The notes under the pieces were generated by a model. It was not told the DNA's origin, ran no database searches, and worked only from the letters and a program-made list of their open reading frames with translations. The translations under genes were made by a program, and so were the position numbers. Of a stretch of 64,000 bases of DNA, positions 1-3,754 are shown in pieces. Position 1 is the first letter of the stretch. Every line of letters starts with the position of its first letter. Source of the DNA: Marinomonas sp. THO17 (lineage in GTDB: Bacteria > Pseudomonadota > Gammaproteobacteria > Pseudomonadales > Marinomonadaceae); assembly GCF_040436405.1 (NCBI RefSeq), contig NZ_AP031575.1, positions 1,120,501 through 1,184,500 on the forward strand. The letters are read 5' to 3'.

Positions 1-1531
1 GCAACATAACCTCTATCTGGCCAATCTCTTCACCAACACCAGCAATGACCGTCTTCTCTCCCATCATTAGAGAGGCCATGAAGGCTGCCATCGTTTGTTT
101 ATGAGATGCTTTCGTTAAGGCAATGGTCAATTCTGAGCCATTTATTGGCTTCACATGTGCTGGCAAACAGTCTTCTCGTTCAAAGGTCAATTCACAGCCC
201 ATTTGCCTTAGCAAACCAAATAAATCGGTCCAAGCCCGATCCAGCAAGGCTTCATCAGCCGTAACTGCAACAGCAAAACCCTGTCCAGCCAAAACCGGCA
301 ACAAAGTATGCAAACTTAACTCAGAATGGTGGAAATTAATCGGGGCAATGGGGGCTTTTAAACCCCTTAATCCTACACCATGCACTCGTAATCGATTTGT
401 CGACAGAGCTTCGATCACCACCCCCATATCTCGCAATGCTTGAATGGTGACTTGCACTTCACCGTCTAAACTGACATTTCGCAAATCACTGATATCTTCA
501 CAAAGCGCCGCTATAGTAATCGCGATATGTGACAAAGATTTGTCACCCGGCAAAGAAATATCACCTTGCAGTACAGAAGCCGGAAAAACTTGCATAGCAA
601 CCGAACTGATATCCTTTTGCACATCACTGGTACGTTGCTCTAACAGTCGTAAAAAGTGATCACGAGCCGATTTGGCGCGGGTAAATACACCAAACATACT
701 GGCGCCATCGCCCTGCTCAATCGCCTGACGCATATCCGCTAAACGCTCAGTAAATTGATCAAGGGTTGCCAAGGTTGCCTCTTTATTCGCCAAGAAAACA
801 TCGCGCCACATCACAGGATCACTGGAAGCGATACGAGTAAAATCCCGAAAACCACCGGCGGCAAATTTAAAGATATCCTGACTGCGATCACTATTTGCTA
901 AAGCATCTACCAAGGTGTAAGCCAACAAATGTGGTAAATGACTGGATGACGCCAAGACATGATCGTGATGTGTCACATCCATACTCACCACATCAGCCCC
1001 TATGGCTCGCCATAAACGATGCAATCGATCCACCAACACAGGATCACTGTTCAAGACAGGCGTGACGATCGCCATGTGTTTTTCAAACAATTGAGAATTG
1101 GCTGCCAGCACGCCACTTTTTTCGGCACCAGCAATAGGATGCCCTGGAATGAAGTTGGGCGGCATAACACCGAACACTCGTTCAGCGGCAGACACCACAC
1201 TACCTTTGGTAGATCCTACATCCGTGATTAGGGTTTGTTCATTAAGAAAGGGTTTGATTTCACTCAGTACTGACGCCATGGCACGCACTGGTGTGGCCAG
1301 AACGATCACATCCATTTTCGCTACATAATCGGCTGTCAATTGCGCAGGATAATCAATCACCCCAGTAGACACACCTAATGCCAACTCCCCTTCACGACGA
1401 TCTACTGCATATAAGGTAGCCAAGCCACGCTCTTTCAATGCTTTTGCGAAAGAGCCGCCAATCATACCCAAACCGACAATCATGACATTGCCAAAGTGAT
1501 TCTGCTCTTGTTTAGTCGTATTCTCTATCAA
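1..1531 (-). CDS. tyrA-aroA: Prephenate dehydrogenase fused to a degenerate EPSP-synthase (AroA) domain, 3' end cut by the window edge
   Basis: The first ~290 residues are a TyrA dehydrogenase (prephenate to 4-hydroxyphenylpyruvate): NAD-binding MIVGLGMIGGSF near the N-terminus, then GHPIAGAEKSG and HHDHVLASSSHLPH. A linker leads into an EPSP-synthase domain starting at SLPGDKSLSH (about position 560). The fusion is the usual arrangement in Pseudomonas relatives. I chose the TTG at 1531 because it is the first start after the in-frame pheA stop and has AGGTGA seven bases upstream; the first ATG is 17 codons further in. The gene follows pheA by 15 bases, so it is probably co-transcribed. Odd: in the visible AroA part the family motifs SHR, NSGT, SAQ(V/I)KSA and RDHTE are replaced (see findings). 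The 3' end lies outside the window. Confidence 0.9.
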   Translation of the reverse strand, partial: MIENTTKQEQNHFGNVMIVGLGMIGGSFAKALKERGLATLYAVDRREGELALGVSTGVIDYPAQLTADYVAKMDVIVLATPVRAMASVLSEIKPFLNEQTLITDVGSTKGSVVSAAERVFGVMPPNFIPGHPIAGAEKSGVLAANSQLFEKHMAIVTPVLNSDPVLVDRLHRLWRAIGADVVSMDVTHHDHVLASSSHLPHLLAYTLVDALANSDRSQDIFKFAAGGFRDFTRIASSDPVMWRDVFLANKEATLATLDQFTERLADMRQAIEQGDGASMFGVFTRAKSARDHFLRLLEQRTSDVQKDISSVAMQVFPASVLQGDISLPGDKSLSHIAITIAALCEDISDLRNVSLDGEVQVTIQALRDMGVVIEALSTNRLRVHGVGLRGLKAPIAPINFHHSELSLHTLLPVLAGQGFAVAVTADEALLDRAWTDLFGLLRQMGCELTFEREDCLPAHVKPINGSELTIALTKASHKQTMAAFMASLMMGEKTVIAGVGEEIGQIEVML

Positions 1532-1546
1532 TCTCGCATCACCTGT

Positions 1547-2668
1547 TTATAGCACTGCCACTGGATAAGAACCCAAAACCTTCACTTCAGAGGCCCGCTC
1601 ACGTAACTCTTCGATGACCGCCTGACACTCAGGGTCTTGATAATGACCAACGAAATCTATGTAGAAAATATAGCCCCAGCGACTCATTAAAGATGGCCGC
1701 GTTTCCAAACGTGTCATATCCACCTTATGACGTTCAAAAGCTTCCAATAAGCGATACAAAGCACCTGGCTCATTCTTCGCACTGATCAGTAAAGACGTCT
1801 TATCCTTTCCACTGGCTGGCACATCCTGAGTTCCCACTATTAAAAAACGTGTTGTGTTATCAGGATGATCTTCAACATTCGCAGACACCTTATCAAGGCC
1901 ATAAAGTTCACAAGCAACTTCTCCAGCAATCGCAGCAATGATACGACCATCCTGAGGATCTTGCGCCGCCAAACGCGCAGCTTCTGCATTTGAACTTACT
2001 GCAACACGCTCAACATGCGGCCAATAGCGATCTAACCATGCACGACACTGGGCAAGTGATTGCTGATGGGAGTAAATATGCGTCACTTCATCCGCATTCA
2101 CATTCGGACTTAACAACAGATGATGATGAATACGCTCTTCCACTTCGCCACAGATTTTTAAACGAGAATCGCGGAAGCTGTCTAAAGTATGATTCACCAC
2201 CCCTTCAGTCGAGTTTTCCACTGGCACCACACCATAATTAGCGGCCCCAGATTCCACTTCGCGAAACACTTCATCAATGGCAGCCATCGGCGCACTAATA
2301 ATAGATTTACCAAAATGCTTAAGTGCTGCTTGCTGAGTAAAAGTACCCTCAGGCCCTAAGAAAGCAATGCGCATTGGCTTCTCTAACGCCAAGCAAGAAG
2401 ACATGATTTGACGAAATATTTTCGCCATTTCTTCATTATCCAATGGCCCTTCATTTCGCGCCATGACACGGCGTAAAACTTGCGCCTCTCGCTCAGGACG
2501 ATAAAAAACAACGGCTTCGTTACCTTGCTCTGCCAACTTCACTTCAGCTACTTTTTCAGCGCATCTGGCACGTTCATTAATTAAAGACTGGATTTGCGAA
2601 TCGATACTGTCGATTCTGTCGCGTAGCAGCGGCAGCGTATCCGGTACGGCCGATTTTAAATTAGACAT
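1547..2668 (-). CDS. pheA: Chorismate mutase/prephenate dehydratase (P-protein)
   Basis: Bifunctional enzyme of phenylalanine synthesis, 373 residues, the usual length. An N-terminal AroQ-type chorismate mutase helix bundle (about residues 10-95) is followed by prephenate dehydratase (about 100-280, with FLGPEGTFTQQAA, VPVENSTEGVVNHTLD and the catalytic TTRFLIVG) and a C-terminal ACT domain (GALYRLLEAF and ETRPS) expected to bind phenylalanine for feedback inhibition. The ATG at 2668 sits nine bases after GGG and is preferred over a GTG at 2674 that directly abuts the serC stop. It lies between serC and tyrA-aroA, making an aromatic/serine operon. The hisC gene often found between pheA and tyrA in Pseudomonas is absent. 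Confidence 0.95.
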   Translation of the reverse strand: MSNLKSAVPDTLPLLRDRIDSIDSQIQSLINERARCAEKVAEVKLAEQGNEAVVFYRPEREAQVLRRVMARNEGPLDNEEMAKIFRQIMSSCLALEKPMRIAFLGPEGTFTQQAALKHFGKSIISAPMAAIDEVFREVESGAANYGVVPVENSTEGVVNHTLDSFRDSRLKICGEVEERIHHHLLLSPNVNADEVTHIYSHQQSLAQCRAWLDRYWPHVERVAVSSNAEAARLAAQDPQDGRIIAAIAGEVACELYGLDKVSANVEDHPDNTTRFLIVGTQDVPASGKDKTSLLISAKNEPGALYRLLEAFERHKVDMTRLETRPSLMSRWGYIFYIDFVGHYQDPECQAVIEELRERASEVKVLGSYPVAVL

Positions 2669-2674
2669 AACCAC

Positions 2675-3754
2675 TTACCCATAACGTTTCTCAAAAGCTT
2701 TCATGAAATCAATCAAGGCTTGAACGCCTTCCATTGGCATGGCGTTATAAATACTAGCGCGCATACCACCAACAGAACGATGGCCTGCTAAAGTACGTAA
2801 ACCAGCTGCTTCCGATTCTTCTAGAAAAGCGGCTTCTAACGACTCGTCAGCTAAAGTAAAAGGCACATTCATACGTGAACGATAAGCTGGTGCAATAGGG
2901 TTAGCATAAAACGCACTTTGATCAATAAAATCATACAAAGCCTTAGCTTTTGCTTGGTTCACTACCTCTATTGCCGATACACCACCCTGCGCTTCCAACC
3001 ATTCAAATACCAAGTCAGCCAAATAAATGGCAAAGGTCGGTGGCGTATTTACCATAGAATCGTGCTTAGCCAAATTAGCAAAATTCCAAATAGTCGGTAA
3101 TGAATCATCACAACGTGCTAACAAATCTTTGCGGATGATGCAGATTACAATACCCGCTGGCCCCACGTTTTTCTGTGCGCCTGCGTAAATCACACCGTAC
3201 TGACTGACATCTATTTTGCGTGACAAAATAGTAGAAGATAAATCGGCAACAATAGGCAGGCTCGTTTGCGGAAGATCGGCAAACTCTAAGCCACCAATAG
3301 TCTCATTAGGACAAATATGTAAATAAGCCGCCTTTTCATCCAATTCCATATCGGACCAATTTGGCACATAGGTGTAATTATCTGCCTTAGATGAAGCAAC
3401 CACATTCACTCGAGTATATTTTTTCGCTTCTTTGATGGCTTTGCTTGACCAAGCACCTGTATCCAAATAACACGCAGACTCATAACCTTTTGCTAGGTTT
3501 GCTGGAATCTGCGCAAACAAAGTCGATGCACCACCTTGAACAAACAATATTTCGTAATCGTCATTGATGTCTAGCAAGCGCTTTAGACGCGCCTTTGCCG
3601 AGGCCAAAATAGACATAAATTCCGTACTGCGATGGCTCATCTCCATCACTGATACACCTGCGCCATGCCAATCCAACAGTTCGGCTTGTGCCTTCTTTAA
3701 AACCGCTTCAGGAAGCGCTGCTGGACCAGAACAAAAATTGTACTTTCGACTCAT
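2675..3754 (-). CDS. serC: Phosphoserine aminotransferase
   Basis: PLP-dependent class V aminotransferase, 359 residues, converting 3-phosphohydroxypyruvate to phosphoserine and also acting in pyridoxal phosphate synthesis. Visible features are the N-terminal YNFCSGPAALPEAVL, the PLP lysine in GAQKNVGPAGI, and the C-terminal GGMRASIYNAMP substrate loop. Its stop codon lies directly before pheA. It is separated from gyrA upstream by 82 bases that contain a probable gyrA terminator. Confidence 0.96.
   Translation of the reverse strand: MSRKYNFCSGPAALPEAVLKKAQAELLDWHGAGVSVMEMSHRSTEFMSILASAKARLKRLLDINDDYEILFVQGGASTLFAQIPANLAKGYESACYLDTGAWSSKAIKEAKKYTRVNVVASSKADNYTYVPNWSDMELDEKAAYLHICPNETIGGLEFADLPQTSLPIVADLSSTILSRKIDVSQYGVIYAGAQKNVGPAGIVICIIRKDLLARCDDSLPTIWNFANLAKHDSMVNTPPTFAIYLADLVFEWLEAQGGVSAIEVVNQAKAKALYDFIDQSAFYANPIAPAYRSRMNVPFTLADESLEAAFLEESEAAGLRTLAGHRSVGGMRASIYNAMPMEGVQALIDFMKAFEKRYG

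Follow-up and report, generated by a model that had tools for sequence, protein, structure and literature searches.

Fungal regulators of the QutR type derive from the catalytic domains of AROM. In bacteria, a fused shikimate-pathway domain has been described in decay in Pseudomonas syringae, in which about 200 residues of the AroF (AroA) half of the TyrA-AroF fusion are deleted and a second, probably transferred aroF is present; the case was called unusual, and it was considered that the remnant could turn into a regulatory domain (Song et al. 2005, PMC1173090). The TyrA core of Pseudomonas stutzeri, engineered free of AroF, is reported to be active (PMC1173090).

Here we analyze the tyrA-aroA fusion gene at the left edge of a 64,000-nucleotide stretch of the Marinomonas sp. 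THO17 genome (the window). Our reading, to which we assign a probability of about two-thirds, is that a working TyrA is joined to a dead EPSP synthase, the catalytic task having been handed over to a free AroA and the fused half having been retained by TyrA as a non-catalytic component.

The fusion gene and its operon

Positions 2 to 1531 of the window, reverse strand, form one open frame corresponding to codons 1 to 510 of the fusion. The whole gene, located at G000:C1:1119809-1122031(-), equivalent to L004:7810-10032(-), has 740 codons and zero stops. The relevant features of the window are as follows.

1..1531, reverse strand: tyrA-aroA fusion gene, codons 1-510 of 740, crossing the left edge of the window
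617..1531, reverse strand: TyrA half (residues 1-305), PDH_N plus PDH_C
1..574, reverse strand: EPSP-synthase half (PF00275) from residue 320, catalytically dead as judged by its residues, continuing outside the window to residue 738
1547..2674, reverse strand: pheA (chorismate mutase-prephenate dehydratase), upstream operon neighbor, ORF named by sequence
2675..3754, reverse strand: serC, ORF named by sequence

Complete TyrA and AroA domains share one reading frame, the architecture of the bifunctional enzyme, within the local gene order gyrA-serC-pheA-[tyrA-aroA]-cmk-rpsA. This is the order of the upper-gammaproteobacterial supraoperon (PMC1173090), with hisHb missing here. The NCBIfam model for the whole fusion, NF011381, matched residues 12-738 with 826.6 bits, below its curated cut-off of 902. 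A promoter and terminator scan of the fusion gene gave signals no more than in shuffles. At the extreme 3′ end, synonymous divergence over the last 45 codons (L004:7810-7960, outside the window) is about half that found elsewhere in the gene (0.36 versus 0.67), perhaps reflecting a DNA-level signal for cmk-rpsA expression.

The TyrA half carries PF02153 and PF20463 and is under strong purifying selection (dN/dS, 0.030), and by sequence it is an intact prephenate/cyclohexadienyl dehydrogenase. It is also the only TyrA of the genome: a genome-wide profile search returned no other convincing PF02153 match, the sole additional one (26 bits, in a 279-amino-acid frame) not being counted as a TyrA.

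Loss of active-site residues in the AroA half

The first-pass annotation, made from the letters of the window, had read four altered motifs in the AroA half (SHI, HHSEL, ASHKQTMA, and EIGQIE). All four were confirmed in the translation and in the alignment.

524..547, reverse strand: GDKSLSHI for GDKS-SHR; K22 and S23 kept, R27 replaced by I
308..331, reverse strand: HHSELSLH for GNSGTSMR; N94H, G96E, T97L, R100H
86..109, reverse strand: ASHKQTMA for SAQVKSA; S169 kept, Q171 replaced by K
11..28, reverse strand: EIGQIE for TRDHTE, as placed by the alignment

We scored 17 contact or catalytic positions (E. coli numbers: K22, S23, R27, N94, G96, T97, R100, R124, S169, Q171, D313, K340, E341, R344, D384, H385, and R386) in an alignment that set the AroA half beside E. 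coli AroA, 22 intact fused halves drawn from the order's other families, and the genomes of the genus (n = 50). The same 17 residues are found in the free AroA of the window's own genome, which was aligned to structure 1g6s. Neither E. coli AroA nor any intact fusion of the order deviates at these 17 positions. This alignment upheld the degradation read in the first-pass annotation and extended it to the C-terminal part of the half, beyond the window, where D313 is replaced by S, K340 by Y, E341 by H, H385 by Q, and R386 by Y. The claim that the substrate-binding positions are gone accordingly holds for 11 of the 17 (R27, N94, G96, T97, R100, Q171, D313, K340, E341, H385, and R386) but not for K22, S23, R124, S169, R344, and D384, which persist. 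Six of the 17 residues of an active EPSP synthase remain in the fused half, versus all 17 in the free AroA.

The same state was found throughout the 50 Marinomonas-group genomes, a set that consists partly of draft assemblies and includes Maribrevibacterium (G016), each carrying a full-length open fusion. Between 4 and 8 of the 17 positions are retained per genome; R344 is kept in 49, K22 in 48, S169 in 43, and D384 in 42, and R100, K340, E341, and H385 in none. Since the same four residues are gone in 50/50 genomes, their loss predates the genus as sampled. From these residues we conclude that the fused AroA half is, as predicted by sequence, catalytically dead, its active site dismantled.

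At the level of the fold the half is still recognizable, PF00275 matching it over model positions 5-411 with 154 bits (complete intact fused halves, 375 to 415 bits). Against solved structures it scored 145 and 144 bits with 4gfp and 3roi and 129 bits with 5buf, and only 33 bits with E. coli EPSPS; these far better matches identify the degraded half, by sequence similarity, as a fused-type AroA. A structure prediction of the 510 in-window residues, run without an alignment, gave a pLDDT of 35.6, and the model was discarded as uninformative.

A frameshift or assembly error, which the first-pass annotation had named as what could overturn its reading, has a negligible probability as the source of these changes. 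We found nothing in its favor, and it is refuted by the uninterrupted 740-codon frame and by 49 other genomes in which the half is degraded in the same way. Independent genomes, together with the lack of any internal stop and a dN/dS near 0.1 (see below), exclude sequencing error.

An intact, free-standing AroA in the same genome

A second aroA elsewhere in the genome had also been predicted, and an intact one was found at G000:C1:227376-228653(-), 0.89 Mb from the fusion and adjoining a thiamine-biosynthesis cluster (genes named by sequence). Its product scored 484.7 bits with PF00275 and has 17/17 of the residues; besides it and the fusion, the PF00275 family is represented in this genome by MurA only. 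The alignment of this protein with E. coli EPSPS structure 1g6s runs from residue 1 through 424, and its highest-scoring match among solved structures is PDB 3nvs (638.6 bits), which we take to be Vibrio cholerae AroA.

The free AroA was detected in 49/50 genomes of the genus, with identities of 80 to 92%; the exception, G043, is a 77% complete assembly. In G027 (C45:84070-85337) the gene is split by a frame change into two overlapping frames, probably a draft sequencing error; otherwise this genome, whose fused half is also degraded, would be without an intact AroA.

These data bear on whether the fused half might retain EPSP synthase activity through an unusual active site. Its fold-level similarity to the family (PF00275, 154 bits) and the catalytic residues still left speak for such activity, which we nevertheless judge very improbable, given that R100, K340, E341, and H385 occur in 0/50 genomes, that most other contacts are variable, and that an intact AroA is present in 49/50.

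In a tree of 91 proteins, the free AroA clustered with those of Neptunomonas OB1, G086, and G150 (support, 100/96), apart from Vibrionaceae and Aeromonas, and the tree points to no direct donor. Because of this shared cluster, the free AroA is probably older than the split of Marinomonas from its Neptunomonas OB1, G086, and G150 relatives.

Decay of fused halves across the order

We searched 82 other fusion-bearing genomes of the order for a free AroA, scored as present above 460 bits. Six had one, and in three of these (G086, G097, and G158) the fused half is degraded, with scores of about 290 bits and active residues lost; in the other three (G150, G056, and G106) it is intact by score. Degraded fused halves numbered 0 among the 76 genomes without a second AroA, a count in which a few halves were cut by contig ends. 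Across the order, fused halves therefore appear to decay only in genomes that also have a second AroA, as judged from these sequences.

Counted as events, decay took place in Marinomonas, in G086, and in the genus of G097 and G158. Saccharospirillum impatiens (L204) shares K22R and G96A with the latter two genomes (L215 and L216), and their free AroAs group together; the G097/G158 genus appears to be related to Saccharospirillum. The fused half of G086 (L217) has N94H, G96A, R344P, D384S, and H385L. Decay is milder in S. impatiens, G097, G158, and G086, each of which has a second AroA, and the Saccharospirillum-type and G086 lineages decayed independently of Marinomonas. In Neptunomonas OB1 (a metagenome-assembled genome) and G150, both AroAs are intact. 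In Reinekea (L205) and Gynuella (L206), cmk comes immediately after tyrA, the AroA half being absent, and a free AroA lies elsewhere in the genome; these are relatives of Saccharospirillum without aroA in the operon. The order hence includes redundant AroA pairs, fused halves in early decay, halves fully decayed yet retained, and genomes lacking the half, a distribution suggesting that the gain of a second AroA precedes the loss of the fused one. Separately, G076 (C1:655407-656624) encodes a third, divergent protein of the EPSP-synthase family (168 bits) beside an intact fusion and MurA.

Purifying selection on the degraded half

Selection was measured as dN/dS by the simple counting method of Nei and Gojobori, pooled over twelve close Marinomonas pairs, with 95% intervals over codons. 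The pooled value was 0.095 (0.081 to 0.110) for the degraded half, 0.030 for TyrA, and 0.029 for the free AroA. Stops in the degraded half number 0 in 50 genomes, whereas about 21 per lineage would be expected neutrally given the synonymous divergence seen. The half is neither truncated nor affected by a large deletion in any of the 50 species, and gaps are confined to 37 of its 441 alignment columns. Purifying selection has therefore continued after the loss of the catalytic residues, as in a pseudoenzyme domain, and since it acts at the codon level, the half must still do something. The first-pass annotation had offered a second aroA and a repurposed half, structural or regulatory for TyrA, as alternatives; the evidence favors both jointly, selection showing a retained role, one that we infer to be for TyrA itself.

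The main rival is that the half has no task at all and is trapped, its frame kept open by polarity on cmk and rpsA and its fold by the harm that a misfolded tail would do to TyrA. We consider this unlikely, though several observations fit it: cmk and rpsA lie directly downstream of the fusion gene, selection on the half is roughly three times weaker than on TyrA and the free AroA, and Reinekea and Gynuella, without the half, have tyrA adjoining cmk. Polarity alone leaves unexplained the dN/dS of 0.095 and the ten newly fixed residues described below; misfolding avoidance might explain selection at the codon level, and the low dN/dS could reflect this only. Moreover, none of 50 species has truncated or largely deleted the half, although the relatives show that an operon can do without it.

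Constraint along the degraded half is uneven, with a dN/dS of 0.050 in subdomain 1 (residues 324-392) and 0.145 in subdomain 3 (residues 469-545), which carries part of the old pocket. Within Marinomonas, conservation at the active-site columns does not exceed that of the rest of the half (P = 0.49), as expected if the pocket is disused, and a repurposed pocket was rejected on this basis. The same result weighs on a related alternative, that the half is an allosteric domain of TyrA whose old pocket binds, as a sensor, a metabolite of the aromatic pathway. In keeping with such a sensor, K22, R344, D384, and S169 are retained in 48, 49, 42, and 43 of the 50 genomes, respectively, and Song et al. 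2005 (PMC1173090) suggested a similar fate for what remains of the half in P. syringae. Most pocket columns, however, vary freely among species and as a group do not exceed the rest in conservation, and the strongest constraint falls on residues 381-420 and not on the whole pocket. We regard ligand sensing as improbable, although some ligand binding by the half may persist, given that K22, R344, and D384 are mostly kept.

Ten positions that are invariant or nearly so in active fusions hold one new residue in at least 49 of the 50 genomes, the replacements including G352N, Y399N, G412P, P456L, and S651E. The most conserved stretch of the degraded half across the 50 species lies within the window.

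335..388, reverse strand: residues 382-399 (RVHGVGLRGLKAPIAPIN)

Mean pairwise identity over residues 381-400 is 0.87, versus 0.53 for the half as a whole; the corresponding values in active fusions are 0.67 and 0.72. The shift in conservation at 382-399 exceeded every residue permutation but was not significant against circular shifts (P = 0.6), and because of the latter we treat it as a lead only. It is suggestive of residues 382-399 being a candidate new contact surface.

Proposed explanation

The reading that we favor, handover of catalysis to the free AroA with retention of the fused half by TyrA, can be set out as follows. The sequences support three steps: a free-standing AroA of the E. 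coli/Vibrio type was already present, as a second copy, in an ancestor within this part of the order; the fused half lost the residues contacting PEP and shikimate-3-phosphate before diversification of the Marinomonas group; and its reading frame and fold-level sequence nonetheless stayed under purifying selection. All EPSP would now be made by the free AroA, and the dead half would be retained since TyrA in these bacteria depends on it as a non-catalytic component. Its likeliest task would be in folding, stability, or oligomer assembly via the N-terminal subdomains (residues ~320 to 420), ligand sensing being less likely. Given that TyrA works without the half in P. stutzeri and that Reinekea and Gynuella have a tyrA without it, such dependence would be lineage specific.

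More tentatively, and at somewhat less than even odds, the full-length EPSP-synthase domain may have become a dedicated, non-catalytic chaperone-like or assembly partner of TyrA in the Marinomonas ancestor, residues 382-420 providing a new and conserved surface for contact, and at least two further lineages of the order may have set out on the same route independently.

Meaning and comparison with known systems

Fusions of this kind are usually taken to have two activities, an annotation that for one half would be wrong in Marinomonas. For work on the shikimate pathway in these bacteria, the relevant enzyme is probably the free AroA and not the fused one. The graded series in the order, from both AroAs intact (G150 and Neptunomonas OB1) through early decay (Saccharospirillum and G086) and a dead but maintained half (Marinomonas) to its absence (Reinekea and Gynuella), amounts to a natural experiment on keeping versus losing a dead domain, and Marinomonas would illustrate well how an enzyme domain can become, in nature, a non-catalytic component. 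No report of a dead AroA half in Marinomonas or of an EPSPS pseudoenzyme was found in the open-access literature searched. What appears to be new, on the sequence evidence, is a full-length, catalytically dead half under selection genus-wide, together with the order-wide association with a second AroA.

In gene order and domains the Marinomonas fusion belongs with the upper-gammaproteobacterial TyrA-AroA proteins (TyrA-AroF; NF011381/PRK14806), with 36 to 40% full-length identity to the intact fusions of its order; unlike them, it has an AroA half without 11 of the 17 active residues and scores 826.6 bits against the cut-off of 902. The free AroA resembles the E. coli (1g6s) and presumed V. 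cholerae (3nvs) type in its full-length alignment and all 17 residues but, unlike these references, groups with other Oceanospirillales, outside Vibrionaceae. As in P. syringae, the function of the fused AroA has been discarded, TyrA retained, and a second, free AroA is present; in P. syringae, however, about 200 residues of the half were deleted, whereas in Marinomonas the half is full length, with residues substituted, and under selection across the genus. The likeness to QutR lies in domains of shikimate-pathway enzymes that have lost catalysis and been kept for another role. The QutR-type protein became a transcription regulator, whereas the Marinomonas half stays fused to an active enzyme.
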